Shown: one piece after another, positions 6,344 to 23,515 of the stretch
Layout: the number at the start of each line of letters is the position of its first letter
Numbering within the stretch: position 1 is the stretch's first letter
NCBI GenBank assembly: GCA_011390755.1
Contig: JAABRU010000002.1
Span: 1-64,000 of the forward strand
Direction of reading: 5' to 3'
Origin: Desulfobacteraceae bacterium
GTDB taxonomy: Bacteria > Desulfobacterota > Desulfobacteria > Desulfobacterales > Desulfococcaceae
DNA: 64,000 bases
Made by a program: the position numbers and the translations under genes
The notes under the pieces: model-generated
Told to the model about the DNA's origin: nothing
The model's input: the letters and a program-made list of their open reading frames with translations, nothing else
Database searches by the model: none

Positions 6344-6375
6344 AGTAATACGAAAAAGATGAATGCTTTCTTACA
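6344..6375 (-). promoter_or_regulatory. ECF-type promoter motif upstream of the anti-sigma/CHAT operon
   Basis: On the minus strand: TGTAAGA, 16 nt, CGTATTACT, ending 70 bp before the anti-sigma start. The same two boxes with the same 16-nt spacing precede cohesin genes at five further sites (15066, 17294, 20496, 20673 and 23484). The arrangement resembles ECF sigma promoters with a TGT-type -35 and a CGT-type -10. Confidence 0.7.
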
Positions 6376-6384
6376 TAATTTTTT

Positions 6385-6768
6385 TGCATTACTCGTTACG
6401 GGGCGGAGCCTCAATGGCATTAAGTTAAGGATGGACGGATTTTGAAAAATCTGTCCCGTAGGGACAGAAAGAAAATAGCCCGGCAGTTTACTGCCGGGAA
6501 TGCGGAAAAAATATTCCGAGTCCCGTAGGGACGGAAGAATTCCGTCTGATTTTCTGCCGTCCCTACGGGACTGATTTTCATGACAATTCCGATCCCGGCA
6601 ATAAATTGCCGGGCTATTCTCTGACACCCCTACGGGGTTTATTCTTTTCAACTCGTTCCCAGGCTCTGCCTGGGAACGCATGGGATGAGGCTCTGCCTCA
6701 CACTGCCGGAGGCGGAGCCTCCGAAAAAATGCGTTCCCAGGCAGAGCCCGGGAACGAGTCCGGTCACC
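6385..6768. repeat. Cluster of short palindromic repeats between the sigma and anti-sigma genes
   Basis: Several hairpin families are packed together: GTCCCGTAGGGAC (6456-6550), CCCGGCAGTTTACTGCCGGG, and CGTTCCCAGGCTCTGCCTGG-type arms around 6650-6760. The segment AATGGCATTAAGTTAAG (near 6413) recurs inverted near 15142. No coding capacity is apparent; the minus ORF over this stretch is repeat-derived. Confidence 0.7.
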
Positions 6769-6769
6769 A

Positions 6770-7351
6770 TTACCCCAGAATTTTCCGGAGATTTTCCAGT
6801 GCCCTGTTTTTAATCTGATAGACATTGTTCACTGTTTTTCCGGTTATTTTACTGATTTCCTGCGGAGACAGTCCTTTGAAGTATTCCAGTTTCAGAACCA
6901 GTTTCTGATCCGGCGGAAGTTTTTCAATGGCATCGGCCATAATACACTGCGTTTCCGCATCTGTTCCGGCCCTTTTTTCCCCGGAAATCATGTCCATGTC
7001 TTCCACAGGAATGCGGATTTTTTCATCTGTGACATTCAGGAATTCCTTTTTTCTTCTGAAATAATCCAGAACCGTCTGCACTGCGATCAGCCGGATCCAT
7101 CCCTCAAACCGCAGACCATGCTGCGGATCATACTGCCGGAGTTTCTGTTTGTTGTATTTAAACAGAACCTCAAATACATCCTGCACCCGGTCTTCCATAT
7201 CCTGGGAAGTAAAAGGAATGTTTCTGCTCCGGTATATTTTTATGGCAATACTACGGATAAGATTCAGATATTGCCGGAAAATCCGGTAACATTCATCTTT
7301 TTCAACACATTCCCGCAGGATTTCCCTTTCCTGTTCCGCTGTGAGTTTCAT
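6770..7351 (-). CDS. RNA polymerase sigma factor, sigma-70/ECF-like
   Basis: A 193-aa protein with the two-domain ECF layout. Region 2 is at about 20-105 (DMEDRVQDVFEVLFKYNKQK, then FEGWIRLIAVQTVLDYFRRKK for -10 recognition). Region 4 is at about 138-190 (LPPDQKLVLKLEYFKGLSPQ, then EISKITGKTVNNVYQIKNRAL, a helix-turn-helix for the -35). The start overlaps the preceding lipoprotein stop as ATGA, so translation is coupled. A block of repeats separates it from the downstream anti-sigma/CHAT pair. It is the best candidate in this window to read the TGTAAGA/CGTAATACT motif, but this is inference. Confidence 0.85.
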   Translation of the reverse strand: MKLTAEQEREILRECVEKDECYRIFRQYLNLIRSIAIKIYRSRNIPFTSQDMEDRVQDVFEVLFKYNKQKLRQYDPQHGLRFEGWIRLIAVQTVLDYFRRKKEFLNVTDEKIRIPVEDMDMISGEKRAGTDAETQCIMADAIEKLPPDQKLVLKLEYFKGLSPQEISKITGKTVNNVYQIKNRALENLRKILG

Positions 7352-9351
7352 TGACTGATGATCCTGTCTCCGATCCGGGTTCCGGGGATAAAAGGGCTTT
7401 CATATCCCTCTGCTATGATACTGCTGATCCGGGAACTGCCGATAATGGCGGTATTGCAGTCCCCGGATGTGTTTTCCGGGCGATAGACCAGCACCGGCCA
7501 TTTTATTCTGTTTTTTCCTTTACAGGGCATCCATTTTTCAGTTTTTATCCGGATGGTATCCGCTATAATTTCCCTGACCGTTCCATCAGAGAGAGGAAAT
7601 TTTCTGTGAATTTTTTCCAAAAGTTTTCGGGCCAGTATTTCCGGCGCGTCATTTTTTCCCCTGCGGGCATATACATCTGCAAACTCAATGGATTCGGATG
7701 TTTTATCCGTAAACTCCGCCACAATCTCTGTTCCGTTTTTTGACTGATGCACAAAACCGAAGAGCAGGGCATGGGGCGGTCCGGGGGAACTGCGATCCGC
7801 TAATGCCGGAAAGGATTTCAGCATTTTCTGTATTTCATCCCGCATGAGCAGGGAGAATCTTTTCCGCTCCGCAAGTCCCTGCATCAGAAAATACTGAAAC
7901 TGCTTTGCGCTTTCCGATGTTTCCACTCCCTCAAAAGGATAAAGGGCCAGCCGGTAGCGGTTTTTCCAGTGAAAGGCCGCGGGGATTTTCCGTTCAATGA
8001 AAATTTCTTTCAGGGCTTCCGAATGTGCTTCATCTTTGGCAGTTATGACAATCTTGTTTTCTCCTTCCCCCAGTTTCAGGGAATGCGTGAAAAAAACAAT
8101 GGTTCCGGTCTGCTGTCCAACTGCATTCAGGACAGAGCTTCCGTTTATGCCCACTTCTTTAAGGGGTGAACTGCTTTTCACATGCCCCCGGAGGAAAATT
8201 CTGTCTGTGTAAACAGTTTCCCGGTCTGTAAATTTTTCCAGATAAATAAACGGTTTCGGCGAATAGGAAACCGGATTCATATCCGATACCGCATTTCCGT
8301 ATTCTGCAAGTAAGGGATTCGGAGTCTGATGCAGAATTCCGGCAGACAGGAAATCCGCTGTTTTTGCAATTGTCTGATTGCCCAGACAGTCAGTGGCGGT
8401 GAGTTGCGGATAAGGGAAGTCGGAAGTCAGGCGCATTTCAAAAATCCAATGATCTTCTGCTTTGCGGAGAGGGACGGTTTTACCGTTGATATTCAGGGAG
8501 ATTTCACCGGATTCATCATAAAGAGAACCTTTGATATATTCACCGGGCCGGAAGGTTTCCAATGCAATGACCGGCCCGATTCGGTCTGCATAAAGGCGGA
8601 ACTCCCGGACGCTCTGCCCGCCCTGAAGGTTTTCCGCGATAATGCGGATTTCATGTTCCCCCTGTTCCGGAGCCAGTTCTTCCCGGACTGCGGTTTTCTG
8701 TGCTGAAGATTCCAGAAACAGGTTTCGGATTTCCGTCCGCCCGGCAAAACGGTCTTCCAAAGTCAGGGAGGCGATATACTGCGGGTCTTCGGCATGGATT
8801 TGAACGGGGAAAAGAGCATTCCGGGTCCGGATTTTTCCCGTATCATCCGTATTTCCGGGAGTTCCTTCGGGAAAATCCACCCGGAGGACAGGAAGGGAAA
8901 GCGGCTGCCCGGCCTGTTCCATCAGTTTTATCCGGACTTCATCCAGCCAGATGAGGGCCTTGTCACTCCGGGCATAGTGAAGGGAAAGCTCCAGTTCCTT
9001 TTTGGCCTGTTCATAATCCCCCTGCAGATAGTGGATGATGCCTTTTTCCCGGTGCGGGAAATAATCCGTGAAATGAAAACCGTAGGTCTTGGCCATGCGT
9101 TCATCCCTGTCCCGCCTGCGGAGTGCCCGGGTCAGATCGGCCAGAGCCGCATCATAGCATTCCCCTTCCATGCAGGACAGCCCCCGTTCATAATAATCAA
9201 ACCACTTTCCCCCGAAAATGCCATCGGTTTGGCAGTACTGAATGCCCTGATTCTCACAGGCCGGACGCGGCGCGTGCTGGCAGGCGGTGAGGAGCAGCAG
9301 GAGCAAATTCACAACTATCAGAGGAACTGATATTTTGACTTTTGCATTCAT
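7348..9351 (-). CDS. Lipoprotein with TPR, Ig-like and FlgO/CsgG-like regions
   Basis: A 667-aa protein. A hydrophobic N-terminus and the lipobox LTAC (Cys24) mark it as a lipoprotein. Residues about 45-145 contain TPR-like helices (DYYERGLSCMEGECYDAALADLTRAL; YLQGDYEQAKKELELSLHYA). Residues about 180-450 are beta-rich Ig-like segments (FRLYADRIGPVIALE; LRGHVKSSSPLKEVGINGSSV). Residues 470-600 (LALYPFEG, FSLLMRDEIQKML) look like the FlgO/CsgG nucleotide-binding-like fold. It overlaps both neighbours by 4 bp (ATGA), forming a tight operon with the 81-aa gene and the sigma factor. It probably senses the envelope for this regulatory system (inference). Confidence 0.7.
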   Translation of the reverse strand: MNAKVKISVPLIVVNLLLLLLTACQHAPRPACENQGIQYCQTDGIFGGKWFDYYERGLSCMEGECYDAALADLTRALRRRDRDERMAKTYGFHFTDYFPHREKGIIHYLQGDYEQAKKELELSLHYARSDKALIWLDEVRIKLMEQAGQPLSLPVLRVDFPEGTPGNTDDTGKIRTRNALFPVQIHAEDPQYIASLTLEDRFAGRTEIRNLFLESSAQKTAVREELAPEQGEHEIRIIAENLQGGQSVREFRLYADRIGPVIALETFRPGEYIKGSLYDESGEISLNINGKTVPLRKAEDHWIFEMRLTSDFPYPQLTATDCLGNQTIAKTADFLSAGILHQTPNPLLAEYGNAVSDMNPVSYSPKPFIYLEKFTDRETVYTDRIFLRGHVKSSSPLKEVGINGSSVLNAVGQQTGTIVFFTHSLKLGEGENKIVITAKDEAHSEALKEIFIERKIPAAFHWKNRYRLALYPFEGVETSESAKQFQYFLMQGLAERKRFSLLMRDEIQKMLKSFPALADRSSPGPPHALLFGFVHQSKNGTEIVAEFTDKTSESIEFADVYARRGKNDAPEILARKLLEKIHRKFPLSDGTVREIIADTIRIKTEKWMPCKGKNRIKWPVLVYRPENTSGDCNTAIIGSSRISSIIAEGYESPFIPGTRIGDRIISQ

Positions 9352-9593
9352 CTGATTTTCGATACATGCAGCAGGGAAATTTTTACTTCATGCGGAACAG
9401 CAATGGCAACAAACCATTCAGCCGGATACAGGTAATCTTCTCCGCTTTCATCAATTATCCGGATATCTCCGTCCGGTTCCGCTTCCTCATCCGGGAGAAC
9501 ACGGTAGATTTTATGCCGTTCCAGAGAAGCCGGGTATTCATCATTCTGGATACATACAGCAAATCTGAGGGATCTATTGTTTTCTTTCATCAT
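9348..9593 (-). CDS. Conserved small hypothetical protein (81 aa)
   Basis: The core reads FAVCIQNDEYPASLERHKIYRVLPDE, then IRIIDESGEDYLYPAEWFVAI, a compact beta-rich pattern that I recall from conserved hypothetical proteins in cyanobacteria and Desulfobacterota, without known function. Two consecutive ATGs (9593, 9590) are possible starts; a longer frame to 9716 only reads through palindromic repeats, so it was trimmed. Its stop overlaps the lipoprotein start (ATGA), making it the first gene of the 81-aa/lipoprotein/sigma operon. No clear Shine-Dalgarno is seen. Confidence 0.6.
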   Translation of the reverse strand: MMKENNRSLRFAVCIQNDEYPASLERHKIYRVLPDEEAEPDGDIRIIDESGEDYLYPAEWFVAIAVPHEVKISLLHVSKIR

Positions 9594-9599
9594 TTTAAT

Positions 9600-9828
9600 C
9601 CGCGTATAAGCAAAGCCCCGAAGGGGCGAATTGATATAGCCCGGGGCGAAGCCCTGGGAAACAGAATTAACAAATGATATTAAGCCCTGAAAGGGCGTAT
9701 TCATATATAATTTCAAAATATCTTTTATTTCATAATCCGCCCTTTCAGGGCTGAGAATTGTGGGGTACTCCCGAATCCCAGGGCTTCACCCTGGGCTTTA
9801 GCAAATCGCCCTTTCAGGGCGAATAATT
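9600..9828. repeat. REP-like palindromic repeats (GCCCCGAAGGGGC family)
   Basis: Alternating hairpins CCCCGAAGGGG, AGCCC-GGGCGAAGCCC-GGG and GCCCTGAAAGGGC in two blocks. The same modules occur at 11690-11946, 12417-12694 and 17714-17913. They flank the tyrosine transposase at 11949-12401, so this is probably a REP family mobilised by that enzyme. Confidence 0.75.
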
Positions 9829-9830
9829 TT

Positions 9831-9906
9831 GTCTGAACCATGATTTGCATGATGAAAATGATTCGCATGATTTTAAAAAAATAATCCCGTGAATCCCGGT
9901 TCAGAC
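9831..9906. repeat. GTCTGAAC-type inverted-repeat element
   Basis: The termini GTCTGAACCATGATT and AATCCCGGTTCAGAC are imperfect inverted repeats bounding 76 bp. The right end lies 2 bp beyond the stop codon of the cohesin/dockerin gene. Relatives are at 17916-18014, 20323-20421 and 20570-20667. Confidence 0.65.
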
Positions 9907-9908
9907 CA

Positions 9909-11645
9909 TCAGTCCAGACAGCCGGGGCTTTCCAAGTATTTTTTGAAAATACAAAGCGCATCTGCCGGAGTGCAATGTCCGTCTTTGTTTACATCGCAGC
10001 AAATTGAATCCGGATTGAATCCGTATGTTGTTGGGCGTTTTTCAAAGTATGTATCAAAGGTTATCAGCGCATCCGCAGGAGTAATATCCTGGTCACAATT
10101 GATATCACCAGCACTAAGACACTGTTTCATCTCAATATCTACAGGAAAACTTTGATTATTTTCTGTAATTGTTATCTGATATTCCGATGCAATTATTTTT
10201 TCGGTTTTTATGATATATGCCGAAACCAGATAACCGGATTTTGAAGCTGTCAGAACGGAATTACCTGATATAGTTAAATTATAAATTCCACTGCTTTCTG
10301 TTGGAAGATCATCAGGATTATTGAAATCACATTGTCCCTGTTCCAAACATCTGATTTTTACTGTAACACCTTCCAGTGGTGCATTTGATATTGCTGATCT
10401 CACCACACCCGAAACCGTCCCCTGAATTTTTACACCACTTTTTGCCACCCCAAGATCATAGTCTGTATCTATTCCATAGTTATCATTGATATCAGCCACT
10501 TTCACATACAGAATGTCATTCTGAACCGCTTCCCATACCAAAGTTTCATCTTCACCGATTCCATTGCTGTTCTCTGTTTTTAACAAAGAAACAGTAACAT
10601 CACTTCTTTCTCCTTTACGCCTCAGATTATTTCCACCGCTGTAAAGTTCTATGATTATATCATTATTTATCCCCGTATTTTTTACTTCTACTGCATAAGA
10701 CTGCCCTGCCACTGCCTGAAATTTTACCCAATCCTGATCGCCCTGTGTTAAAAAACTATGACGCTGCGGCCTGAAATCAACAATAATCTTTCTCGCATTA
10801 TCAGAAGCATTATCATATTCATATGCATCGAATTCTGCGGGATATTCCACCGAAAGGTCATATCCCGTTCCCTCACCGAAAACATTGGGATTACTGTTTC
10901 TGATTTTGACAAAATAAATGGTATCCTGCGTACAGTTCCAGGTAACACTTTCACCAACTCCCGCACCCTTGCTGTTTTCAGACAGAATCAGGGTCTGACC
11001 GTCAATGGCGTAGAGTTCAATCACCGTATCACAGTTGGCTTCCGGGTTTCCGGTTCTGAGGGTATAGGATTTTCCGGCTGTGCCGTAAATCATGCCCCAG
11101 TCCGCATCTCCGGCTTCATGAAAATTATGACGCTGTACTTTGTCAATCACACCGGACTGGGGATAGAAATTATCCGGTTCATACGCGTCCTTGCTGAAAA
11201 TCTGTGCATCTGCTATTGTCCATGTTTCCATATCATCCATGCGGTTCCGGATACTGACCTGCGTATTTCCCGCATTCAGAACCCTGAAAGTGATATTCAC
11301 AATCGTTCCGGAAGCATTCTGGGCAATGATATTGGAGCCGGTATCCATTCCACCCACCCGGATATTTCCTGTGGAATAGGGATTGACTTCAGAATATTCA
11401 AAATTTTCTGCCAGGGAACCTGTGAAACTGTGGGATTTGTATTGCAGCATGGCCGCATCATAAGAAACATCAAATCCGAAAGAATAGACCGCATTGGGAG
11501 CATTATTGACTGAACAGGTAATGATAATATCCTGTTCTGCCTGCGCGGCAGGGGCGGTAATTTCCAGATCCGCCGCAAATACGTTAATACAGTATATCCA
11601 CGAAACTACAGTGAAAACCGCCACAGCTATAGAATTTCTTTTCAT
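9909..11645 (-). CDS. Secreted cohesin-dockerin protein with two PPC-like domains
   Basis: A 578-aa protein; the start at 11645 follows GGAGGAAAT. A signal peptide (1-24) precedes a cohesin domain (about 25-155: NAPNAVYSFGFDVSYDAAML, GGMDTGSN, MDDMETW). Two pre-peptidase C-terminal-like beta domains follow (DAYEPDNFYPQSG..., GDADWG; YEYDNASDNARKI..., GDQDWVKF), then a carboxypeptidase-regulatory-like domain (390-485) and a type I dockerin (about 490-578). The dockerin has two Ca-binding loops (GDINCDQDITPADAL; DVNKDGHCTPADALCIF) and ends SPGCLD. Cohesin plus dockerin on one chain permits self-assembly into polymers (inference). Its upstream region lacks the TGTAAGA/CGTAATACT motif. Confidence 0.85.
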   Translation of the reverse strand: MKRNSIAVAVFTVVSWIYCINVFAADLEITAPAAQAEQDIIITCSVNNAPNAVYSFGFDVSYDAAMLQYKSHSFTGSLAENFEYSEVNPYSTGNIRVGGMDTGSNIIAQNASGTIVNITFRVLNAGNTQVSIRNRMDDMETWTIADAQIFSKDAYEPDNFYPQSGVIDKVQRHNFHEAGDADWGMIYGTAGKSYTLRTGNPEANCDTVIELYAIDGQTLILSENSKGAGVGESVTWNCTQDTIYFVKIRNSNPNVFGEGTGYDLSVEYPAEFDAYEYDNASDNARKIIVDFRPQRHSFLTQGDQDWVKFQAVAGQSYAVEVKNTGINNDIIIELYSGGNNLRRKGERSDVTVSLLKTENSNGIGEDETLVWEAVQNDILYVKVADINDNYGIDTDYDLGVAKSGVKIQGTVSGVVRSAISNAPLEGVTVKIRCLEQGQCDFNNPDDLPTESSGIYNLTISGNSVLTASKSGYLVSAYIIKTEKIIASEYQITITENNQSFPVDIEMKQCLSAGDINCDQDITPADALITFDTYFEKRPTTYGFNPDSICCDVNKDGHCTPADALCIFKKYLESPGCLD

Positions 11646-11689
11646 ATTTCCTCCTTTTTCCATTATCATTTATGCTGCATGTATCTATT

Positions 11690-11946
11690 CACAGCCCCGA
11701 AGGGGCGAATTGGTAAAGCCCTGGGTGAAGCCCTGGGAAACGGAATTAACAAATAATATCAAGCCCTGAAAGGGCGGATTAGAAAATCCGGTCAAATGCC
11801 GAAAGCCCGAAGGGGCAAATCAGAAAATGATGCCAATTCTATAATCCGAAGCCCCGAAGGGGCGAATTGATAAAGCCCAGGGTGAAGCCCTGGGAAACGG
11901 AATTAACAAATAATATCAAGCCCTGAAAGGGCGGATTAGAAAATCC
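11690..11946. repeat. REP-like palindromic repeats on the 3' side of the transposase gene
   Basis: At least two full modules of CCCCGAAGGGGCGAATTG, GGGTGAAGCCCTGGG and GCCCTGAAAGGGCGGATT. The block ends 2 bp before the transposase stop codon. It mirrors the array on the other side of the gene (12417-12694). Confidence 0.8.
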
Positions 11947-11948
11947 CA

Positions 11949-12401: not shown

Positions 12402-12416
12402 GAACATATCTCCTTC

Positions 12417-12694
12417 TAATCCGCCCTTTCAGGGCTTGTATATGTTGGGGAATCCCGATTCCCAGGGCTTCACCCTGGGCTGTACCAATACGCCCCTTCG
12501 GGGCTTTTTAAAATCCGCCCTTTCAGGGCTTGTATATGTTGGGGAATCCCGGTTCCCAGGGCTTCACCCTGGGCTTTACCAATACGCCCCTTCGGGGCTT
12601 TTTAAAATCCGCCCTTTCAGGGCTTGTATATGTTGGGGGAATCCCGGTTCCCAGGGCTTCACCCTGGGCTGTACCAATACGCCCCTTCGGGGCT
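12417..12694. repeat. Three 94-bp tandem REP modules upstream of the transposase gene
   Basis: Units begin ATCCGCCC at 12419, 12513 and 12607 (94-bp period) and are almost identical. Each contains CCGCCCTTTCAGGGC, CCCAGGGCTTCACCCTGGG and GCCCCTTCGGGGC hairpins. The last hairpin ends in the stop codon of the FadL-like gene (12694-12696). High identity indicates recent amplification. Confidence 0.85.
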
Positions 12695-14058
12695 TAGAAT
12701 GAATAAACAATCAAAGACAGATAAAACATATGCTCCTGAACATCCTGTGAAAATTCCATTCCTTTTAAAATATATTCCCCCGTATCATTACCGTAACGGA
12801 ACTGGTAGGCCATATCCAGGGAAAACCTGTTGTTCAAAGTAAATCCGGAACCGATGGAAAATCCGTAATAATCATCCGGGCTGTTTTCTGCGGGAGCCGG
12901 ATCATAAAACAGTCCGCAGCGGACGGGGACAACCATTCCCCTTTTCTCATCCTTAAACAGCAGGTATTCGGCTCCCAGTCGGACCTGATATGTGGGATCA
13001 GTGCGGGATTCCTCCATCGGCTTTCCGGTCAGAGGAGATGTCTTTCTTCCCTTTTCATCTGTATATTCAAAATCATCCCAATGGGTTTTGTAAATATCCC
13101 CGGAAAAGGCCAGTTCTTCTGAAAAATGATATACGACTCCGATACCGTAGGACATGGGCATTTCCAGTTCTTCATCGTTTTCGTATTCACCTGCATTAAT
13201 TATCGGGATTTCAGATCTTTCCGGATAATATTTTTCTGAATAAGCATGACGTTTGTAAGTTACGTCTGCTGTAAAAGGTGTTTTCAAAACTGCCCCGATA
13301 CGCCACTTATCATTGATATCCCAGAGAATCCCCAGATTGATATTGAATCCGCTGAAAGTATAGGATTCAGTTCTGTTATAATGTTCTGTAAAAGGTTCAC
13401 TGTTTGAGGCTGTCGGTATATCTGCCGCTGATAATAACCCCTGCCGTATCTTTTTATATTTCTGCTCCCATTCATTATCAGTAATGCTGTCCTCCCAGAA
13501 ATTCAGGGTAAAACCCGCTGAAAGATGTTCCGGTATCACCTGAACACAATAGGAAAACCCGACAGCCGAAAGACTGCCGCTCTGCTCATACTGCCATGCG
13601 TCCCGGTAGGAGGTGGGGCCGACTCTGCCGGTGAGAAGAAAATCCCATTCACGGGAAAAATCAAAAAGGTGCTGGTAACTCAGGGAGACAATCATATTGT
13701 AATTCAGCAGTTCAAAAGGCCAGGCTGCGCTCAGGTAGTTGATATTGGCTCCGGATACAGTATTGGAACCGGATGCTTCCGGGTGGGTTCCGAAATTCAG
13801 ATCCTCCCCGCGGTAAAAACCGCTTGTTACAAGGGATAACTCCGGTTTCCGCAACTGGATCAGCCCTCCCGGATTCCAGGAAGCCGCCGTGGCATCATCG
13901 GCCACGGCAATGAATGCGCCTCCCGTTCCCATCGCCCTTGCGCCCGACCCCACCGGATTAAAGGTGGATGGAATTTCTATGGGGCCTGCAAGAGCTTCGG
14001 AAAGAAAACAAAGGACAATCCCGATAATAGCGATATTTTTTATGTGTTTGGAATTCAT
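12694..14058 (-). CDS. FadL/OmpP1-family outer-membrane beta-barrel protein
   Basis: A 454-aa protein with a signal peptide (1-24). The conserved FadL N-terminal plug segment follows: NPVGSGARAMGTGGAFIAVA, then DDATAASWNPGGL. The rest alternates beta strands with aromatic girdles and ends LSLIVYSF, a terminal Phe typical of outer-membrane barrels. FadL-family proteins transport hydrophobic molecules such as long-chain fatty acids or aromatics. The start codon overlaps the stop of the upstream cohesin gene (ATGA), so the two are co-translated, suggesting the cohesin protein works with this porin at the cell surface (inference). A broken copy of its N-terminus lies at 15290-15425. Confidence 0.85.
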   Translation of the reverse strand: MNSKHIKNIAIIGIVLCFLSEALAGPIEIPSTFNPVGSGARAMGTGGAFIAVADDATAASWNPGGLIQLRKPELSLVTSGFYRGEDLNFGTHPEASGSNTVSGANINYLSAAWPFELLNYNMIVSLSYQHLFDFSREWDFLLTGRVGPTSYRDAWQYEQSGSLSAVGFSYCVQVIPEHLSAGFTLNFWEDSITDNEWEQKYKKIRQGLLSAADIPTASNSEPFTEHYNRTESYTFSGFNINLGILWDINDKWRIGAVLKTPFTADVTYKRHAYSEKYYPERSEIPIINAGEYENDEELEMPMSYGIGVVYHFSEELAFSGDIYKTHWDDFEYTDEKGRKTSPLTGKPMEESRTDPTYQVRLGAEYLLFKDEKRGMVVPVRCGLFYDPAPAENSPDDYYGFSIGSGFTLNNRFSLDMAYQFRYGNDTGEYILKGMEFSQDVQEHMFYLSLIVYSF

Positions 14059-14960
14059 TGTATTCCTGCAACATCCCGTAAAATATGGATGGCTTCTTCC
14101 ATTCCAATTCTGAAATCCTTATTCACATCCGCTGCAAGACTGATACTGTCGCTCTGAATTCCGGTAAAAATCTGCAGGCTCAGTATCCCGTCCCGCAGAT
14201 CGGTTTTGCAGTCATTATTGACATTTCCCTTAACTGTTTTTTCCGTATTTACAGTGACAGTTGTTTCTGTGCTTCCGGTGCATCCGGAAACAAGGATTTT
14301 CAGCAAATATGGGGATGAACAGTTCAGTTTGCTGCTGTCCCTCACGGTAATCAGACCGGAACTGTTTATGGCAAAAACACTGTCTGTATTGCCATCAGTA
14401 ATGCTGAAGGAAAGGGTCTGATTATTGTCCTCCGTCACAGAAACCATTCCGACCACTGTTCCGTTTGTACTGTTCCCTTTAACGGTGAAAGACTGACCGT
14501 CCGAAACTTTCGGCACAATGGGCGGATTGGCAGGCCAGCACTTGAAATCATCGGCCAGATTGCTGAATGTGCTGCCGCAGTCACCCTTTGCTTTTACCTG
14601 AAAAGTCAGATGGAGAAATTCTCCGCTGACACCTGCTGGTAAGGAAGCTGACCCGGTTTCAAATCCGCCGCATCTCAGATTGCCGGAAGACTGTTCATTT
14701 ACTTCAAAAAAAGCGAACCTGTTTTCGGCAAGTGTCCCTTTTGTAAAAGAGATATAAGATAATACATCAGGATTATACAAAAGGTCAAATCCGAAAGTTG
14801 CCACCTCATTGGGAGCGGAATTCATGGACACGGTGCAGCTTATCTCACTTCCCACAGCCGCATTGGCACAGTCCCCGCAGGATATTTCCAGCGCAGCCCC
14901 ATAAGCACTGCCTGCGGATATACAGACCAGAACCAGCAGAATCCCCAACATTTTTTTCAT
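14055..14960 (-). CDS. Secreted cohesin protein with cadherin-like repeat and dockerin-like C-terminus
   Basis: A 301-aa protein. A signal peptide (1-21, AYGA) precedes a cohesin domain (22-150: NSAPNEVATFGFDLLYN, KGTLAENRFAFF, LADDFKCW). One cadherin-like repeat follows (about 150-240, SFSITDGNTDSVFAINSSG), then a dockerin-like segment with two Ca-loop motifs (NVNNDCKTDLRDGILSL; ADVNKDFRIGMEEAIHIL). The first 120 residues are almost identical to the paralogue at 15426-17186, showing a recent duplication. It is coupled by ATGA to the FadL-like gene and preceded by a TGTAAGA-N16-CGTAATACT motif at 15066-15097. Confidence 0.82.
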   Translation of the reverse strand: MKKMLGILLVLVCISAGSAYGAALEISCGDCANAAVGSEISCTVSMNSAPNEVATFGFDLLYNPDVLSYISFTKGTLAENRFAFFEVNEQSSGNLRCGGFETGSASLPAGVSGEFLHLTFQVKAKGDCGSTFSNLADDFKCWPANPPIVPKVSDGQSFTVKGNSTNGTVVGMVSVTEDNNQTLSFSITDGNTDSVFAINSSGLITVRDSSKLNCSSPYLLKILVSGCTGSTETTVTVNTEKTVKGNVNNDCKTDLRDGILSLQIFTGIQSDSISLAADVNKDFRIGMEEAIHILRDVAGIQ

Positions 14961-15065: not shown

Positions 15066-15097
15066 AGTATTACGAAAACGGGGTGAAAAATCTTACA
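15066..15097 (-). promoter_or_regulatory. ECF-type promoter motif of the cohesin/FadL operon
   Basis: On the minus strand: TGTAAGA, 16 nt, CGTAATACT, ending 106 bp before the cohesin start at 14960. It is identical in boxes and spacing to the motif before the paralogous cohesin gene (17294-17325). Confidence 0.7.
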
Positions 15098-15425: not shown

Positions 15426-17186
15426 TTATTTTATATTTGCAATATCCCGTAAAATATAGATGACTTCTTCCAATCCGATCCTGCCGTCATTGTTTATATC
15501 AGCCTCAGGATTGATTGCTTCGGTCTGAATCCCGGTAAGGATTTGCAGACTCAGTATCGCGTCCTGCAAATCGGTTTTGCAGTCATCGTTGACATTTCCC
15601 TTAACCGGTTTTTCAATATTCACAGTGACAGTTGTTTCTGTACTCCCGCCGGGTCCGGAAACCTGAACTTTGAGAGAATAAATCGGATTCAGACAGAAAT
15701 CCAGTTTTGTGTTGTCAGTTACGGTAATTACCCCTGCATCGCTGATGGCAAACACTTCCTGGGCATCCCCGCCGATAATGCCAAAGGTCAGGGATTCATG
15801 ATTGCCTTCTGTTACAATAACTGTTCCAACCACTGTGCTGTTTGCAATATTCTCCGGAATGCTGAAGGATTGATTGGATGGTACAACCGGTGCAGTTCCT
15901 GTGACATTCACGGTCACATTACTTTCAGATGATCCGAAACATCCGGAAACAAGGATTTTCAGAGAATAAGGAGAAACGGAACAGTCCAGTTTTGTGCTGT
16001 CAGTTACGGAAATGACTCCGGAATTACTGACAGCAAAAATATCGTTTCCGCCTTCAATGCTGAATGTCATGGTTTGGCTTCCGCCTGTCACGGCAACCGT
16101 GCCGACCGCTGTGCCGTTTGCACTGTTTTCCGGAATGGTAAAAGACTGACCGGACTGTATGACAGGTAATGTTCCTGTGACATTCACAGTCATATCTGCT
16201 TCCGCAGAACCCGAACATCCGGAAACACGGACTTTCAGGGAATAAACTGATATTGCGGAACAGTCCAGTCTGCTGCTGTCATTTACCGTAATCACTCCGG
16301 AACTGCTGACGGCAAAGGCACTGTCCGTATTTCCGGAAACAATGCTGAATGTCATGGTTTTGCTGCCGCCTGTCACGGCAACCGTGCCGACCGCTGTGCC
16401 GTTTGCACTGCTCTCACGTATGGTAAAAGACTGACCGGACTGTATGACAGGTAATGCTCCTGTGACATTCACAGTCATATCTGCTTCCGCAAAACCCGAA
16501 CATCCGGAAACACGGACTTTCAGGGAATAAACTGATATTGCGGAACAGTCCAGCCCGCTGCTGTCATTTACCGTAATCTCTCCGGAACTGCTGACGGCAA
16601 AGGCACTGTCCGTATTTCCGGAAACAATGCTGAATGTCAGACTTTCATTATTGTCATCCGTAACAGAAACCATACCGACCGTTGTTCCGTTTGTGCTGTT
16701 TTCATTAACAGAGAAAGACTGGCCGGGTGGAATTACCGGAACTATAGCGGGATTTGTGGGCCAGCATTTGAAATCATCGGTCAGATTGCTGAATTTTGCT
16801 CCGCAGGCTCCTTTTGCCATAACCTGAAAGGTAAGAAGGAGAAAATCTCCGCCGGAACCCGAAGGAAGCGGGTTGGTTCCGATTTCAAATCCGCCGATCC
16901 GCAGATGACCGGAACCCTGTTGGTTTACACCAAAAAAATCGAACCGGTTCTGTGCAAGCGTTCCTTTTGTAAAAGAGATGTAAGACAATACATCCGGATT
17001 ATACAAAAGGTCAAATCCGAAAGTTGCCACCTCATTGGGAGTGGAATTCATGGAAACGGTGCATGTTATTTCACTCCCCACAGCCGCATTTGCACAGTCC
17101 CCGCAGGATATTTCCAGCGCAGCCCCATAAGCACTGCCTGCGGACATACAGACCAGAACCAGCAGAATCCCCAACATTTTTTTCAT
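15426..17186 (-). CDS. Secreted cohesin protein with four cadherin-like repeats and dockerin-like C-terminus
   Basis: A 586-aa paralogue of the 301-aa protein. The signal peptide and cohesin (1-148) are nearly identical to it, but four cadherin-like repeats of about 90 aa follow (each with GQSF, GTAVGTVAVTGG, SIVSGNTDSAFAVSSSGVI, LDCS...YSLKVRVSGC). A dockerin-like tail ends the protein (NVNDDCKTDLQDAILSLQIL; DINNDGRIGLEEVIYIL). Repeats 2 and 3 are almost identical in DNA, so copy number probably varies by recombination. Each repeat carries a conserved Cys pair. It is preceded by the TGTAAGA/CGTAATACT motif at 17294. Its FadL partner survives only as a remnant. Confidence 0.82.
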   Translation of the reverse strand: MKKMLGILLVLVCMSAGSAYGAALEISCGDCANAAVGSEITCTVSMNSTPNEVATFGFDLLYNPDVLSYISFTKGTLAQNRFDFFGVNQQGSGHLRIGGFEIGTNPLPSGSGGDFLLLTFQVMAKGACGAKFSNLTDDFKCWPTNPAIVPVIPPGQSFSVNENSTNGTTVGMVSVTDDNNESLTFSIVSGNTDSAFAVSSSGEITVNDSSGLDCSAISVYSLKVRVSGCSGFAEADMTVNVTGALPVIQSGQSFTIRESSANGTAVGTVAVTGGSKTMTFSIVSGNTDSAFAVSSSGVITVNDSSRLDCSAISVYSLKVRVSGCSGSAEADMTVNVTGTLPVIQSGQSFTIPENSANGTAVGTVAVTGGSQTMTFSIEGGNDIFAVSNSGVISVTDSTKLDCSVSPYSLKILVSGCFGSSESNVTVNVTGTAPVVPSNQSFSIPENIANSTVVGTVIVTEGNHESLTFGIIGGDAQEVFAISDAGVITVTDNTKLDFCLNPIYSLKVQVSGPGGSTETTVTVNIEKPVKGNVNDDCKTDLQDAILSLQILTGIQTEAINPEADINNDGRIGLEEVIYILRDIANIK

Positions 17187-17293: not shown

Positions 17294-17325
17294 AGTATTA
17301 CGAAAGGGGATGTAAAAATCTTACA
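17294..17325 (-). promoter_or_regulatory. ECF-type promoter motif of the 586-aa cohesin gene
   Basis: On the minus strand: TGTAAGA, 16 nt, CGTAATACT, ending 108 bp before the start at 17186. The boxes and distance are the same as for the paralogous gene. Confidence 0.7.
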
Positions 17326-17913: not shown

Positions 17914-17915
17914 TT

Positions 17916-18014: not shown

Positions 18015-18017
18015 CCA

Positions 18018-20246
18018 CTAATCCAGGCAGCCCGGCTGGCCCAGGTATTTGCGGAAGATGCAGAGGGCATCTGCCGGGGAATCCTGACCATCCTGATTCA
18101 CATCCGCACAGAAAGAATCGCAGTCCAGACCCGAAGATGTGGGGCACATGAGCATGTATTTCTGGAAGGCGTTCAATGCATCAGCGGGTGTGATCTGACC
18201 GTCTTTGTTGGTGTCGCCGTTGCAACCTCCATCACATCCCGGAGTACCAAACCAAGCGGCAATGTCGTCCTTCAGTTCGCTCAGGCTTATTTTCTGAGGA
18301 CTTATAAAAGTATTGGACACATCAAAGGTGATTTTGACAATCTCACCGGATGCTCCTGCGGCAATCACATCCGTGCCGCTGACTTTGTATGCTCCGCAGC
18401 GCAGGGTATTGGCGGAGATGACGTTTACATCCAGCAGATAACCCGATGGAACCAGAGAACCTTTTTCAAAGCCGGTGTAGGTCAGGCCGTCCGGGACGGT
18501 GATGTCAAATCCCATTGCTTCCACGTTATTGGGAGCATTCTGTATCCGTACCGAGGCAGTACCGGGGCCGCCCGGAGTAACGCTATAAGAGGGAATATCA
18601 ATGTCGCCGGTGTCGTCTTCAATACAAGGCGGCACTTCATCATAAGTGATTTTAATATCATCAATCCAAATCTTTCCGGCTCTGTAAATAGACCATATGA
18701 GGGTAGATTTATCTTGATTAGGAATCGGAAAAGTAAGCTCTGTCCAGCAATTTTCCACGTCAAATGATTTGTTGAGAGCTATCAGAGGGACATCGTTAAT
18801 ACCGAAATACATGGCAGGTGTCTCGTTATATGCATTTCCGTCAATCTGGATTTTAAATGAAACAGATACGGCATTGGTAACATCCAAAGAAATATCGGCC
18901 ATTTCACTACTGTCACTATGAATTGAGCTTGAAGAATTATATCCCTTTGTTGTATCAATCGTCCAGGTTCCGGATTGCGTAAATTCTGAAGGTACACTTG
19001 TTTCGTCTTCAAAGTTATAGTTTGTTGAACTCGAACCTGAGATCGAAACCGGTTTTGCAGTTGTTTTGACTTCTCCGATTGTGAGAAAAGCCGAAGCTGA
19101 ATAATTATCATAAATATCAAATAAAAAGTTTGCGCTGTCAATGAATTCAGCTTCATTGCTTGTCATGGTATCAGAGTTGGTGTGAATTATACTGCCGCCA
19201 TTTACATCGTAGTCCCCGGTTGATGTTATTGCCGTATATGTTCCATCACCATTTACCACATAACGTGTATAATACCAAATATCCTCAGAGATAACTATGG
19301 AATCCCGCCATGAATGATTCGTTGAGAAACTTCCTGCCACGATAACATAAGGGGATTGAATTCCTATCTGGAATACAGAATATGCATTTCCTGCATGAGG
19401 TTTCCATTTAACAAATGATTCAGTATTTCTGAAGTCATACAGAGTGTCCGACATTATTTCTGTAGTAGCATTCAGGTAAGACGGATACAGTATTAAGCCT
19501 TCGGGTGATTCTTCAATTTTTGCACATTGTCCCTGAGTCCAATTATCTATCGTTAAAGAAACTGTATTACATTCCGGGCAGGGATCGGTCTGTTCCTGCT
19601 CAATGGTGATATAATCCATTTCAATATAATGACCTGTGTACCAGCCATATGAATCCATATGAATAGAAATTGAGGAATCTGTAAATACTTTATATGTATA
19701 TGATACTGGATTCCTGTTATTCAGACTGTATGTCATTTCACCTGTTTTGGGGTCAAATGTCAATTCTTCTTCAAACCATTCATCCCAGACAGGTTCAAGT
19801 AAATCAAACTGTTCTCCAATCCTAAACCCGAATCCAACTGCTGTAGTTTGATAATAATAATTCATATAATAAATTCCACCGAAAAAACTATTATCAGAGC
19901 CATTGTGTATTGAAATCCTTCCATAGTAATAGTTGTTAGCATAATGAACCTTAGCTCTTCTCTTTATAATTATTTTTCCTGAAGAGTTAATATCTAAAGG
20001 AATAGAATATACATATCCTCCCCAATCTGTAGAATTCTGAGAAATTTTCAGTATCCCATTTGCCTCCTCAACAGTATCTCCTACGCCGGCAGCAAGATTT
20101 GGCTGTGTAACACCAAGTTTCCATTTGGAAGTTTCCAATACCCCGTCATTAAAATCATCCTCCAGCAGCATTTTCGTTGCAGCACTTGCCATGTTGCCAA
20201 AAAGCAATGCCATAAGCATAAACGAACAAACCAGAATCTTTCTCAT
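18018..20246 (-). CDS. Secreted multidomain cohesin-dockerin protein with LamG-like regions
   Basis: A 742-aa protein with a signal peptide (1-22). Residues about 23-225 and 226-410 are concanavalin/LamG-like beta sandwiches rich in aromatic residues (LLEDDFNDGVLETSKWKLGV; FVKWKPHAGNAYSVFQIGIQ), probable carbohydrate binders. Residues about 415-590 form a third beta region (TNYNFEDETSVPSEFTQSGT). A cohesin follows (about 600-690: NAPNNVEAMGFDITVPDG, LKDDIAAW), then a type I dockerin with loops DTNKDGQITPADALNAF and DVNQDGQDSPADALCIF ending QPGCLD. The C-terminal tail matches that of the 9909 gene. Two tandem TGTAAGA/CGTAATACT-type motifs lie upstream (20496, 20673). Confidence 0.82.
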   Translation of the reverse strand: MRKILVCSFMLMALLFGNMASAATKMLLEDDFNDGVLETSKWKLGVTQPNLAAGVGDTVEEANGILKISQNSTDWGGYVYSIPLDINSSGKIIIKRRAKVHYANNYYYGRISIHNGSDNSFFGGIYYMNYYYQTTAVGFGFRIGEQFDLLEPVWDEWFEEELTFDPKTGEMTYSLNNRNPVSYTYKVFTDSSISIHMDSYGWYTGHYIEMDYITIEQEQTDPCPECNTVSLTIDNWTQGQCAKIEESPEGLILYPSYLNATTEIMSDTLYDFRNTESFVKWKPHAGNAYSVFQIGIQSPYVIVAGSFSTNHSWRDSIVISEDIWYYTRYVVNGDGTYTAITSTGDYDVNGGSIIHTNSDTMTSNEAEFIDSANFLFDIYDNYSASAFLTIGEVKTTAKPVSISGSSSTNYNFEDETSVPSEFTQSGTWTIDTTKGYNSSSSIHSDSSEMADISLDVTNAVSVSFKIQIDGNAYNETPAMYFGINDVPLIALNKSFDVENCWTELTFPIPNQDKSTLIWSIYRAGKIWIDDIKITYDEVPPCIEDDTGDIDIPSYSVTPGGPGTASVRIQNAPNNVEAMGFDITVPDGLTYTGFEKGSLVPSGYLLDVNVISANTLRCGAYKVSGTDVIAAGASGEIVKITFDVSNTFISPQKISLSELKDDIAAWFGTPGCDGGCNGDTNKDGQITPADALNAFQKYMLMCPTSSGLDCDSFCADVNQDGQDSPADALCIFRKYLGQPGCLD

Positions 20247-20421: not shown

Positions 20422-20495
20422 AACCCTCACCTCCTTTTCCCAATCCGATTTACTGTTTTCCGGGTTACAGTCTCTTTGTCGTCTGTCTTTAAAAA

Positions 20496-20527
20496 AGTAT
20501 TACGGAACCGGACGCGGGTTTCTTACA
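20496..20527 (-). promoter_or_regulatory. ECF-type promoter motif (proximal) of the 742-aa cohesin gene
   Basis: On the minus strand: TGTAAGA, 16 nt, CGTAATACT, 250 bp upstream of the start at 20246. An inverted-repeat element lies between it and the gene. Confidence 0.65.
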
Positions 20528-20569
20528 GAACCTCAATTTTTTTCTGCATTTTTTTCTGAACAGACGGAC

Positions 20570-20667: not shown

Positions 20668-20672
20668 AAAGA

Positions 20673-20703
20673 AGTATACGAAAGAGGGCTTGGGAATCTT
20701 ACA
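20673..20703 (-). promoter_or_regulatory. ECF-type promoter motif (distal) upstream of the 742-aa cohesin gene
   Basis: On the minus strand: TGTAAGA, 16 nt, CGTATACT (one base shorter than the other -10 boxes). It is a tandem duplicate of the motif at 20496, separated from it by the 98-bp element. Activity is uncertain because of the missing base. Confidence 0.55.
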
Positions 20704-20764
20704 GAATTTTTCAGGATTTTTTTGAATGGAATAAAATTATCAGTGGAATCAGGTAAAAAAAGTA

Positions 20765-21151
20765 TCACCATCTGACATCAGTATCATAAAGATCAAACAG
20801 AGGATCGCATGACAGCAAAACAAGTGACTCTGTAGCGGCCTGAGCGATAATCATCCGGTCAAAAGGATCTTTGTGGTGACGGGGAAGCTGACCGGCATAA
20901 AAAGCATGTCTGTCTGTAATCGGCAGAGACTCAATTCTGTTTTTCTCAAGTTCTTTTGGGAGAAATATTTCCGGTTTATCCGGAAGGGGAAGGCGACCCA
21001 AAGCATATTTGATGGCAACCTCCCATGAAGATGCAGAACTCCAATACAGACTGTTTTTACTGTTTCTGATAATGTTCCGGGCAGTTTCTGACAGTTGGGG
21101 CGCATCCGTAATCCACCAGAGAAAAGCGTGAGTATCAAGAAGGATTTTCAT
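20765..21151 (-). CDS. vapC: VapC-like PIN-domain toxin
   Basis: A 128-aa PIN-domain ribonuclease. Acidic residues lie where the fold needs them: Asp6 in MKILLDTHAFLWW, Glu44 in SSWEVAIKY, and Asp96 and Asp99 in HKDPFDRMIIAQA. SCDPLFDLYDTDV supplies the last acidic position. VapC toxins cleave RNA, often tRNA, and are silenced by their antitoxin. The start overlaps the upstream antitoxin stop by 4 bp, the usual antitoxin-first order. Confidence 0.88.
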   Translation of the reverse strand: MKILLDTHAFLWWITDAPQLSETARNIIRNSKNSLYWSSASSWEVAIKYALGRLPLPDKPEIFLPKELEKNRIESLPITDRHAFYAGQLPRHHKDPFDRMIIAQAATESLVLLSCDPLFDLYDTDVRW

Positions 21152-21381: not shown

Positions 21382-21583
21382 GGCAGACCTCCTTTTTTGT
21401 ATTTGAAGTCAATACAGATCGGATCAAGTGTAACTCAGGGACAGTCCGGTGTCAAGACCTGATCAATCAATAATAACAGAGAAAATAAAGCCTTATTGTA
21501 ATAAATTTCCTGCATTTTTTCGTTTGACAGCAGACTGCTGATTGATTAAAATCAGAATATCAGAACATATTAAGGACGGATAT

Positions 21584-22426
21584 ATGAAACTTACGGACTG
21601 GCACCGGCTGTTCGGGATGACCCTGACCGATTTTTTCACAGGCACAGATTATGCTGTGGAACTGGAAAAGGACCTGTCCCTGAAACAGCAGATTCTGGAT
21701 GTGGTTATTATTGAAAAAACAGAGGGAACCCCGCCGGAGGCACTGCCCGACGGGCTGGAAAATCTGGGGAAACACAATCTGCTTTCCTACAAATCCATGC
21801 GGGAGTCCTTCAACGCCTGGGCCGTTGAGGAACTGATCGGGCATTTTGTCAATTACCGCAAGCAGAGCAGTCCCTCGCTGAAAAAACTGCTGCCGGAAAA
21901 GGATTTCCGGCTGTATGCGGTCTGCACCCGATATCCGGCAAAACTGGCAAAACAGATTCCTCTGAAACAGGTGAAAACAGGGGTTTACGATTTCCGCTGG
22001 GGGCTGCGGGACATACGGCTTGTTGTCACCGGTCAGATTGAGAAAAAAGAGAGAAACGCCGTCTGGCTCATGTTCAGCGCGGTGGGGGAAAATGTGCATT
22101 ACGGTTTTTCCCGTTACAGCGGGAAACTGGATGAAATGAGCATAACCATAAACGATCTGCTTGCAGCATATCAGAAAGAGGGGGTAATCACCATGTCCTA
22201 CACACTTGAGGATTACAGAAGGGATATAAAGGAACGGGCACTGAAAATGATGACACCGGAGGATGTTCTGAAGGCATTTCCCCCGCAGGAACTGCTCAAA
22301 GGAATACCCGCTGAGGAGATATTCAGAAGATTTTCCCCGGAGGAAAGACTCAGAGGGCTTTCCCCGGAAGAAATCGAGGCCGTCCTGAAAAAGATGCGGA
22401 AACCGAAAACAAAGGGGAAAGAATAG
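21584..22426 (+). CDS. Rpn/YhgA-like conserved hypothetical protein
   Basis: A 280-aa protein from the ATG at 21584, preferred over 21542 because AAGGA lies just upstream and homologues that I recall begin near this point. The body (LKQQILDVVIIEK, LPDGLENLGKHNLLSYKS, HFVNYRKQ, FRLYAVCTRYP) fits a widespread family annotated as Rpn-like PD-(D/E)XK nuclease or transposase-related. The C-terminus has short degenerate repeats (TPEDVLKAFPPQELLKGIPA, SPEERLRGLSPEEIE) before a basic tail, as is common in that family. Such genes are mobile and multicopy; fragments of a relative occur at 15187-15291. It is convergent with the cohesin gene, with 1 bp between stops. Confidence 0.65.
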   Translation: MKLTDWHRLFGMTLTDFFTGTDYAVELEKDLSLKQQILDVVIIEKTEGTPPEALPDGLENLGKHNLLSYKSMRESFNAWAVEELIGHFVNYRKQSSPSLKKLLPEKDFRLYAVCTRYPAKLAKQIPLKQVKTGVYDFRWGLRDIRLVVTGQIEKKERNAVWLMFSAVGENVHYGFSRYSGKLDEMSITINDLLAAYQKEGVITMSYTLEDYRRDIKERALKMMTPEDVLKAFPPQELLKGIPAEEIFRRFSPEERLRGLSPEEIEAVLKKMRKPKTKGKE

Positions 22427-22427
22427 T

Positions 22428-23465
22428 TTATCTTTTCCCCAAAATCCGCTTTATCCCCATTATCTGCCAGAATATGCCCAGCAGCACGGCCAGAATCAGT
22501 GTCAGAACAATAAGGACTGACCAATGCCATATTCCTGTCCCCGGATTTCCGGATTCCGTGTCCGCTGCTCCGTCATTTTTTTGGAAATCCGGGAGACGGA
22601 CAGATTGCGGCAGATTCCGAATGCCTGTTTCTTTTTCATCCGCCTGATTTAACCGAAGGGGAACGGAGATGTTGCTGTCCGGTATGGGAACTGTCTGCCC
22701 TTTGTATGTTTTCGCTGATCCGCTTTCCTCTTGCGGAACTGCTTTTTCTTCTGTCATATTTCCGCTTTTGTTACTGACCGGTCTGACGTTCCCAATCTTT
22801 TCATCTGCCGGTTCCGGAGCCGATGCCGGTCTGAAATCCGGGGAAGGGGCAGCATTATTTTCCATGCTGTTCAGCGTATCCGCGTAAAGCGGGACACTTT
22901 CCTCACTGCTGACGGATTCCCCGGTTTCCGCATTCTCCGGCTCTTTTACTGTATTATCCGCATCTTTTTCCCCATCGTCTTTCCCGTCATCCGGCTCCTC
23001 ATCCGGAATTCCGGAAAAAGAGCCGTCTCCCGCAGACCATCCCTTGACATCATCCAGGAGATTCCGGATTTGCAATGCACAGTTTTTTGCATCCGCCACT
23101 TCAAAATCCATCCGCAGCAGAACTCCGGACGAGCCCTGCTGAATCGGATTCTCCCCCGCATCAAATCCGCCGATTCTCACGGTTCCGAAATCCGTATTAT
23201 TGGCACTGAAGTGGGTAAATTTCTGCGTCAGGGAACCGGGGGAGAATCCCCGGAATTGCAGAACCGTGGCATCATACACCACCTCAAAACCCAAAGCCTG
23301 TACCGTATCGGACACATCCGCAGCCGATACGGTAAAAGAAACTGTTTCCCCCGTTCCGGCGGATTTTCTGTCAATGCGGATGACAGATGCGCTGACAGCA
23401 TGAGTTGAAATACAAAAAATGCACCACATAAGAAACCATATTTTTTTCCCGGTCTGATCTTCCAT
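22428..23465 (-). CDS. Membrane-anchored cohesin protein
   Basis: A 345-aa protein. A signal peptide (about 1-26) precedes a cohesin domain (27-150: SAGTGETVSFTVSAADVSDT, ALGFEVVYDATVLQFRG, GGFDAGENPIQQGSSG, LLDDVKGW). A long acidic Pro/Glu/Ser-rich stalk (150-310) leads to one transmembrane helix (about 312-335, WSVLIVLTLILAVLLGIFW) and a short basic tail. It has no dockerin. This resembles anchoring scaffoldins that hold dockerin-bearing proteins on the cell, here in the inner membrane with a spacer across the periplasm (inference). A TGTAAGA/CGTATTACT motif lies 19 bp before the start, and AAAGGAG precedes the ATG. Confidence 0.8.
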   Translation of the reverse strand: MEDQTGKKIWFLMWCIFCISTHAVSASVIRIDRKSAGTGETVSFTVSAADVSDTVQALGFEVVYDATVLQFRGFSPGSLTQKFTHFSANNTDFGTVRIGGFDAGENPIQQGSSGVLLRMDFEVADAKNCALQIRNLLDDVKGWSAGDGSFSGIPDEEPDDGKDDGEKDADNTVKEPENAETGESVSSEESVPLYADTLNSMENNAAPSPDFRPASAPEPADEKIGNVRPVSNKSGNMTEEKAVPQEESGSAKTYKGQTVPIPDSNISVPLRLNQADEKETGIRNLPQSVRLPDFQKNDGAADTESGNPGTGIWHWSVLIVLTLILAVLLGIFWQIMGIKRILGKR

Positions 23466-23483
23466 AATTTTCTCCTTTAAAAC

Positions 23484-23515
23484 AGTAATACGGAAAAGCG
23501 GAAGATTTTCTTACA
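23484..23515 (-). promoter_or_regulatory. ECF-type promoter motif of the membrane-anchored cohesin gene
   Basis: On the minus strand: TGTAAGA, 16 nt, CGTATTACT, ending 19 bp before the ATG. Transcription would start inside a very short leader that still contains the ribosome binding site. Confidence 0.7.

Follow-up and report, generated by a model that had tools for sequence, protein, structure and literature searches.

Csx29, a CHAT protease of Desulfonema ishimotonii, cleaves Csx30, an inhibitor of CASP-sigma, and motifs for CASP-sigma lie within its own locus (PMC10028731). In Myxococcus xanthus, the extracytoplasmic function (ECF) sigma factor DdvS is under a zinc-type anti-sigma factor, DdvA, that is tied to a CHAT domain and to the membrane (PDB 8rot, 8rlz), and DdvS is reported in a review to control an antiphage island (PMC4374960, PMC12288465). 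In the RseA/DegS/RseP and RsiW pathways, an envelope signal acts through a protease on an anti-sigma factor and thereby on an ECF sigma factor (covered in part by PMC10028731). Here we describe a locus that resembles these systems, in a 64,000-nucleotide stretch of the genome of a Desulfobacteraceae bacterium (assembly GCA_011390755.1, contig JAABRU010000002.1, positions 1 to 64,000 of the forward strand; this whole stretch is hereafter the window), an uncultured-type relative of Desulfonema. In the window, copies of the box pair TGTAAGA-N16-CGTAWTACT precede an operon for an anti-sigma factor and a CHAT (caspase-like) protein, as well as four cohesin genes. Sequence comparison supports well the reading of these sites as promoters, and they are probably read by the ECF-type sigma factor encoded next to them.

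The type III-E CASP system (CASP-sigma, Csx30, Csx29 and Cas7-11) is like the present locus in combining an ECF-like sigma factor, an inhibitor and a CHAT protease, with cleavage known there and proposed here (PMC10028731). In both, the motifs lie inside the sigma factor's own locus, and the best Foldseek matches of a model of the window CHAT protein are Csx29 chains. The present locus departs from the CASP system in the membrane segment predicted for its CHAT protein and in having a zinc anti-sigma factor as the inhibitor; CASP-sigma is only 13% identical to the window sigma factor, and profiles of the sigma, anti-sigma, CHAT and lipoprotein families score at most 2.2 bits against CASP-sigma, Csx30, Csx31 and Csx29. 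With these scores, and with PADLOC returning no match for the four window proteins tested (Cas7-11 was not searched for in the rest of the genome), we do not assign the locus to the type III-E CASP system. (Note that one genome in our set, recognised as D. ishimotonii by a gRAMP/Cas7-11 gene at the published coordinates, holds a type III-E system together with two of the present modules.)

Searches with our anti-sigma and CHAT profiles pick up DdvA at weak significance (E 0.0049 and 0.036, respectively), and Foldseek with the CHAT model finds it at E 1.4e-8. DdvA is a single chain of 991 residues, in which the anti-sigma match spans 7-39 and the CHAT match 906-988, whereas here the two functions are encoded by two overlapping genes and the CHAT domain is N-terminal of the membrane segment rather than C-terminal in the protein; we therefore do not class the window protein as a DdvA-type anti-sigma factor. 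In addition, the DdvS target is an antiphage island, whereas here the sites precede surface-protein genes. Unlike RseA and RsiW, which span the membrane, the anti-sigma factor here has no predicted membrane segment, and it is the candidate protease that has one. In cellulosomal assemblies, cohesin and dockerin modules are found on secreted proteins. Such modules also occur here on proteins that are predicted to be secreted, but in four of the six the cohesin and dockerin-like parts are on the same protein, and no Pfam catalytic domain scores above its cut-off. Limited full-text searches (CHAT with sigma and anti-sigma; cohesin with ECF sigma) returned no description that we recognised as the present module, which agrees with the statement, in a first-pass annotation of this DNA, that no described regulon of this composition was known; the architecture does have close analogues in CASP-sigma/Csx30/Csx29 and DdvS/DdvA. 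We regard the system as a probable variant of protease-controlled ECF signalling, one that differs in sequence or in gene layout from these closest precedents.

Six sites in one gene cluster

A pattern search for TGTAAGA-N16-CGTAWTACT gave five exact matches in the window, all on the minus strand, and one further site that is one base short, with a constant spacing of 16 nucleotides (nt) between the boxes (Table 1). They lie ahead of the anti-sigma/CHAT operon and of four of the six cohesin genes, with two sites at the gene at 18018-20246, just as the first-pass annotation had reported, and its claim that they lie beyond chance is borne out: allowing up to three mismatches, the window contains seven matches, whereas 100 dinucleotide shuffles averaged 0.33 and never exceeded 2. 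One of the seven, at 62787, looks like background. The shortened site, which was scored as 20672-20703 with three mismatches against the full pattern, is possibly weak or decayed. At several window sites there are A-tracts 5' of TGTAAGA and a TAAAG-like stretch 3' of CGTAWTACT, which resemble UP elements and a start region, and a gene for a PIN-domain protein (a VapC-like toxin candidate; 20765-21151, minus strand) lies just upstream of the double site.

A search of the whole host genome (6.9 Mb, 91% complete), which the annotation had proposed as a check, returned the same five window sites as the only exact matches, all within the cluster and before genes, and none for the reversed pattern. 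When up to three mismatches are allowed, 56 matches turn up genome-wide versus 117 for the reversed pattern, so that the matches outside the cluster amount to background. Indeed, beyond the cluster there is no match with one mismatch, and there are only two with two mismatches (C75, C186), neither of which is followed by an open reading frame of more than 76 codons in the stretch examined. The exact N16 motif was found in none of 290 other genomes of the same order that were searched, a set drawn from a larger group.

The module and its probable promoter motif in other genomes

Homologues of the sigma factor (E<=1e-20) are present in 19 of 291 genomes of the same order, the host included. We took 34 loci around these homologues, two of them from the host genome, which holds two further modules (C229 and C33). 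Among the 35 loci obtained with the window, 32 contain the anti-sigma gene, 32 the CHAT gene, 33 a gene for a TPR-containing lipoprotein and 19 a gene for a PorV-like protein; the anti-sigma and CHAT genes are both missing from L064, L069 and L095, and in L064 and L095 the sigma gene is near a contig end. Across the phylum, a profile of the lipoprotein matched 24 of 395 genomes, in some cases in its C-terminal part only, and 6 of 23 loci around the stronger matches have sigma and anti-sigma genes together. A sigma search in named genomes gave one distant locus, which was left out of further analysis.

To obtain a motif from these modules, we searched the intergenic DNA ahead of the anti-sigma gene in 25 of them, leaving out the window, L080 and L081 (near-copies of L079) and loci in which fewer than 42 nt separate the sigma and anti-sigma genes. 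The de novo motif, TGTAAGAA-N13-GTGTATT, had a log-likelihood of 119.8 (1108 starts) as compared with 50.8-52.9 in four mononucleotide-shuffled sets (173-194 starts each). (Note that an earlier run, which included sigma coding sequence, had given a close second motif (135.7 versus 139.1) that we read as conserved coding sequence; the run was then repeated on intergenic DNA only.) In the 531 kb of the 35 loci, 42 matches scored at least 14 versus 4 in reversed sequence, and 28 versus 0 scored at least 16; most of these matches lie in training loci, and the window site, which scores 15.9, was held out. A site scoring at least 12.5 precedes the anti-sigma gene in 23 of the 32 same-order modules, the window included. 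Outside the order, a site is present in three of six modules, all held out (L188, 15.9; L189, 21.6; L191, 13.6, which is weak). Most, but not all, of the modules without the motif have little or no gap between the sigma and anti-sigma genes. Finally, a relaxed pattern, itself partly chosen from the same sigma-bearing genomes, gave 33 matches versus 10 reversed in the 19 genomes with the sigma factor, and 4 versus 4 in 19 genomes picked among the 272 without it. The occurrence of a similar box pair before the anti-sigma gene of other modules, in and beyond the order, and the enrichment of relaxed matches in sigma-bearing genomes both favour the annotation's suggestion that the sites are ECF-type promoters that define a regulon.

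Several observations count against that suggestion. Nine of the 32 same-order modules stay below 12.5 before the anti-sigma gene (although extending the search into the 3' end of the sigma gene raises L062 to 14.0 and L066 to 17.5), and three of the six modules outside the order have no motif. In a 315-kb scan outside the order, 6 matches versus 1 reversed were found at a score of at least 14, and 1 versus 1 at a score of at least 16. The family form is mostly one base shorter in its spacing than the window form and, owing to this longer spacing and to a divergent -10 box (CGTAWTACT), four of the five exact window sites score below 14 on the family matrix. The other modules of the host (C229, C33) contain no site of score at least 14, and two cohesin genes of the window lack a site: within 450 nt, the closest sequence to the pattern has 5 mismatches for 1855-3189 and 6 for 9909-11669. 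In the C229 module, where no motif was found, a minisatellite occupies most of the gap between the sigma and anti-sigma genes; these tandem repeats (L065 10229-10585, G000:C229; 15-nt units, and others at intervals that are multiples of 7) could have broken up or displaced that module's promoter. Moreover, in a Mantel test of sigma against promoter divergence in 21 modules, a set without L080 and L081, the spacer correlates much as the boxes do (r 0.45 and 0.49, respectively; -0.03 for the 17 nt upstream), so that common descent may explain the correlation between sigma factor and promoter; a previous test, with another 21 promoters, had given 0.63. We accordingly do not claim co-evolution that is specific to the boxes.

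The genes downstream of relaxed matches often encode predicted secreted proteins. In particular, the motif lies upstream of a predicted secreted family of about 106-109 residues with a GTG start in six genomes (L064, L067, L158, L169, L172 and L173), of two PEP-CTERM-type proteins in L073 (one of which was tested by Pfam) and, in L175, of a cadherin/dockerin-like protein with a dockerin match below cut-off. No open reading frame of at least 70 codons is found within 350 nt of 9 of the 37 relaxed sites, some of which are at contig or fetch ends, and several of the open reading frames that do follow relaxed sites look unrelated (for example in L157 and in genomes without the module). In L073, a module of the genome recognised as D. 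ishimotonii, five sites of score at least 14 fall inside 8 kb (6095-13598), two of them ahead of PEP-CTERM-type proteins. In genome G115, four modules (L067, L085, L086 and L087) have different -35 boxes (TGTAAGAA, TGAAAGAA, TGTATAAA and TATAAGAA, respectively), differences that could insulate paralogous sigma factors from one another.

Proteins of the module and the cohesin genes

The first-pass annotation had placed an ECF-like sigma factor in the region, and the gene at 6770-7351 does encode one. The anti-sigma factor scores 19.8 against the Pfam zinc anti-sigma family, below the cut-off of 22.2, and its profile matches 3hug, RsiW, ChrR, DdvA and RsrA (the last at E 0.52). Its HxxxCxxC motif, in an N-terminal helical domain, is kept in 32 of 32 homologues, and hydropathy indicates a membrane segment in none of the 32. 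In a structural model (predicted local distance difference test (pLDDT) score 81.1), the helical domain is followed by a linker at 101-118 (pLDDT<50), which is predicted to be disordered, and a beta-sandwich; a fold search gave no match below E 0.001.

The CHAT gene overlaps the anti-sigma gene (5621/5631), and its product matches the CHAT domain at 6.8e-25. The catalytic dyad is conserved, His210 in 32 of 32 proteins and Cys252 in 31, the lone exception being a truncated copy. (In L087, at 11381-13479, the CHAT gene falls into two reading frames, 11381-12742 and 12739-13479; this copy may be broken or frameshifted.) Hydropathy indicates one transmembrane (TM) segment after the CHAT domain in 27 of the 28 CHAT proteins of more than 450 residues, and the Lys/Arg flanks of this segment favour an inside location of its N-terminal side in 19 of the 28 and the opposite in 5. 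In the predicted structure (pLDDT 78.8), the caspase-like domain is joined by a low-confidence linker to a helix that coincides with the membrane segment, and a C-terminal domain follows. After Csx29, the nearest solved fold is separase, and gingipain and DdvA also match. The C-terminal tail shares homology (hhalign 96.7%, E 3.7e-10) with the C-terminal domain of the lipoprotein, and its model has a weak match to PelC/CsgG (E 0.001-0.003).

Pfam confirmed the Cohesin domain in six window genes; in 18018-20246 the match is to a sub-sequence only and exactly at the 24.1-bit cut-off. Genome-wide there are nine cohesin-domain matches, five in the window and two beside the second module at C229. 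Each of the six proteins has a hydrophobic segment at its N-terminus. Dockerin-like loops, identified by pattern, form the C-terminus of four, and in one the C-terminus bears a membrane segment. Between these genes lies an IS200/Y1-type transposase gene (11949-12407, minus strand), and short palindromes of the CGCCCTTTCAGGGC type occur near 9351 and 11669, an arrangement that we take to resemble that of RAYT and repetitive extragenic palindromes (REP).

Table 1 Features of the window discussed in the text. Distances are counted from where the second box ends to the start codon.
Feature	Position	Strand	Remarks
ECF-type promoter (predicted)	6344..6375	-	TGTAAGA-N16-CGTATTACT; 69 nt before anti-sigma/CHAT operon; held-out score 15.9
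ECF-type promoter (predicted)	15066..15097	-	105 nt before cohesin gene 14055-14960
ECF-type promoter (predicted)	17294..17325	-	107 nt before cohesin gene 15426-17186
ECF-type promoter (predicted)	20496..20527	-	249 nt before cohesin-dockerin gene 18018-20246
Degenerate second site of 18018-20246	20673..20703	-	TGTAAGA-N16-CGTATACT, one base short; pattern search
ECF-type promoter (predicted)	23484..23515	-	18 nt before cohesin gene 22428-23465
ECF-type sigma factor	6770..7351	-	sigma-70 regions 2 and 4, without region 3; TIGR02937, 5.5e-27
Zinc anti-sigma factor, predicted soluble	5621..6274	-	HxxxCxxC (H32, C36, C39), linker with Arg109, C-terminal beta-sandwich
CHAT (caspase-like) protein	3832..5631	-	protease domain ~1-340 (His210/Cys252), linker, predicted TM ~397-420, C-terminal domain ~473-598
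TPR-containing predicted lipoprotein (Cys24)	7348..9351	-	C-terminal domain homologous to that of CHAT protein
Cohesin protein, predicted secreted	14055..14960	-	dockerin-like C-terminus (two EF-type loops by pattern); site 15066
Cohesin-cadherin protein, predicted secreted	15426..17186	-	dockerin-like C-terminus; paralogue of 14055-14960; site 17294
Cohesin-dockerin protein, predicted secreted	18018..20246	-	sites 20496, 20673
Cohesin protein, predicted secreted	22428..23465	-	C-terminal membrane segment; site 23484
Cohesin-dockerin gene	9909..11669	-	no motif site
Cohesin-Big_9-fn3 gene	1855..3189	-	no motif site
PorV/FadL-like outer-membrane barrel (predicted)	12694..14058	-	overlaps 3' end of cohesin gene 14055-14960

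A proposed protease-controlled switch and its alternatives

We propose that the sites are -35/-10 elements read by the neighbouring ECF sigma factor, and that they would make up a local, autoregulated regulon of the anti-sigma factor and CHAT protease, the cohesin surface proteins and the PorV-like barrel. In the resting state, the sigma factor would be held by the soluble zinc anti-sigma factor. The CHAT protein would be anchored in the inner membrane, its protease domain facing the cytoplasm and its PelC/CsgG-like domain the periplasm, where an envelope or surface signal might reach it by way of the lipoprotein that bears the homologous domain. Once activated, CHAT would cut the anti-sigma factor at an Arg in its linker, between the sigma-binding and beta-sandwich domains, and the freed sigma factor would transcribe the regulon, whose cohesin proteins may assemble at the surface; fresh anti-sigma factor and CHAT made from the same promoter would reset or sharpen the switch. 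The linker Arg (Arg109 in the window) is proposed as the cut site because it is near-invariant: it is present in 38 of 39 anti-sigma homologues, including seven outside the order, and the exception has an Arg two residues earlier. We regard this account, taken as a whole, as somewhat more probable than its competitors combined, with the protease step as its least certain part.

That step could be wrong in a specific way: the boxes may be ECF promoters of the module's sigma factor while CHAT has another target, such as an effector or envelope protein, or pulls the anti-sigma factor off allosterically, the anti-sigma factor itself sensing the signal. The profile relatives of the anti-sigma factor include ChrR and RsrA, which sense their signals directly, and it carries a C-terminal beta-sandwich. 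Several Arg-specific clan CD enzymes have an Asp two residues before the catalytic Cys, where CHAT here has Asn, and specificity for Arg is not shared by every known CHAT enzyme. The Arg count, too, depends on the alignment, since in another the Arg was kept in 27 of 29, the two exceptions being L077 (Lys) and L084 (His). Against this alternative are the conserved His and Cys of CHAT, the overlap of its gene with that of the anti-sigma factor, a predicted topology that is compatible with cleavage, and the position of the near-invariant Arg in a low-confidence linker; we consider it rather unlikely, though well worth keeping in mind.

The identity of the sites themselves seems to us firmer than the cleavage. 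Were the box pairs transcription-factor sites or an operator, with transcription starting elsewhere, the distance of some sites from the start codon (249 nt in the case of 18018-20246) would be readily understood, but one would have to set aside their fixed orientation toward the gene in the window, the co-occurrence of the motif with the sigma family across genomes, the lack of any DNA-binding protein other than the sigma factor among the five module families tracked, and the ECF-like separation of TGTAAGA from the CGTA-like box by 15-16 nt, which is comparable to that of SigW-type ECF promoters; we judge an operator improbable. It is very improbable that another ECF sigma factor of the host reads the promoters while the local one reads other sites: the genome does have two more modules with sigma homologues (C229 and C33), either of which might be that factor, but all five exact sites are within about 17 kb that include the local sigma gene, and none is near the paralogues. 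The sites might, lastly, be dispersed or duplicated DNA copied along with tandem cohesin genes, with no regulatory meaning. The sites at 15066 and 17294 do have similar spacers and paralogous genes downstream, and may therefore stem from one duplication and not be fully independent. The spacers of the other sites differ, however, and a similar motif recurs in other genera, outside the order and before genes other than cohesin genes, which leaves copying without function hardly credible as an explanation.

If the proposed switch is correct, caspase-like proteases would take part in ordinary transmembrane gene control, outside clustered regularly interspaced short palindromic repeats (CRISPR) systems and cell death, in what would be a simpler analogue of the Csx29/Csx30/CASP-sigma logic. 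The proposal yields a testable prediction that turns on one Arg and one Cys, together with a promoter sequence. More broadly, and with a confidence that falls a little short of even, we suggest that a CRISPR-free module has spread in the phylum in which a CHAT protein of the inner membrane, in response to an envelope signal and through a single cut at the near-invariant Arg of a soluble anti-sigma factor, frees a dedicated ECF sigma factor that builds a cohesin-dockerin surface assembly, and in which each copy may have its own promoter dialect. Such a module would provide a regulatory handle on why bacteria of this kind have cohesin-dockerin proteins.

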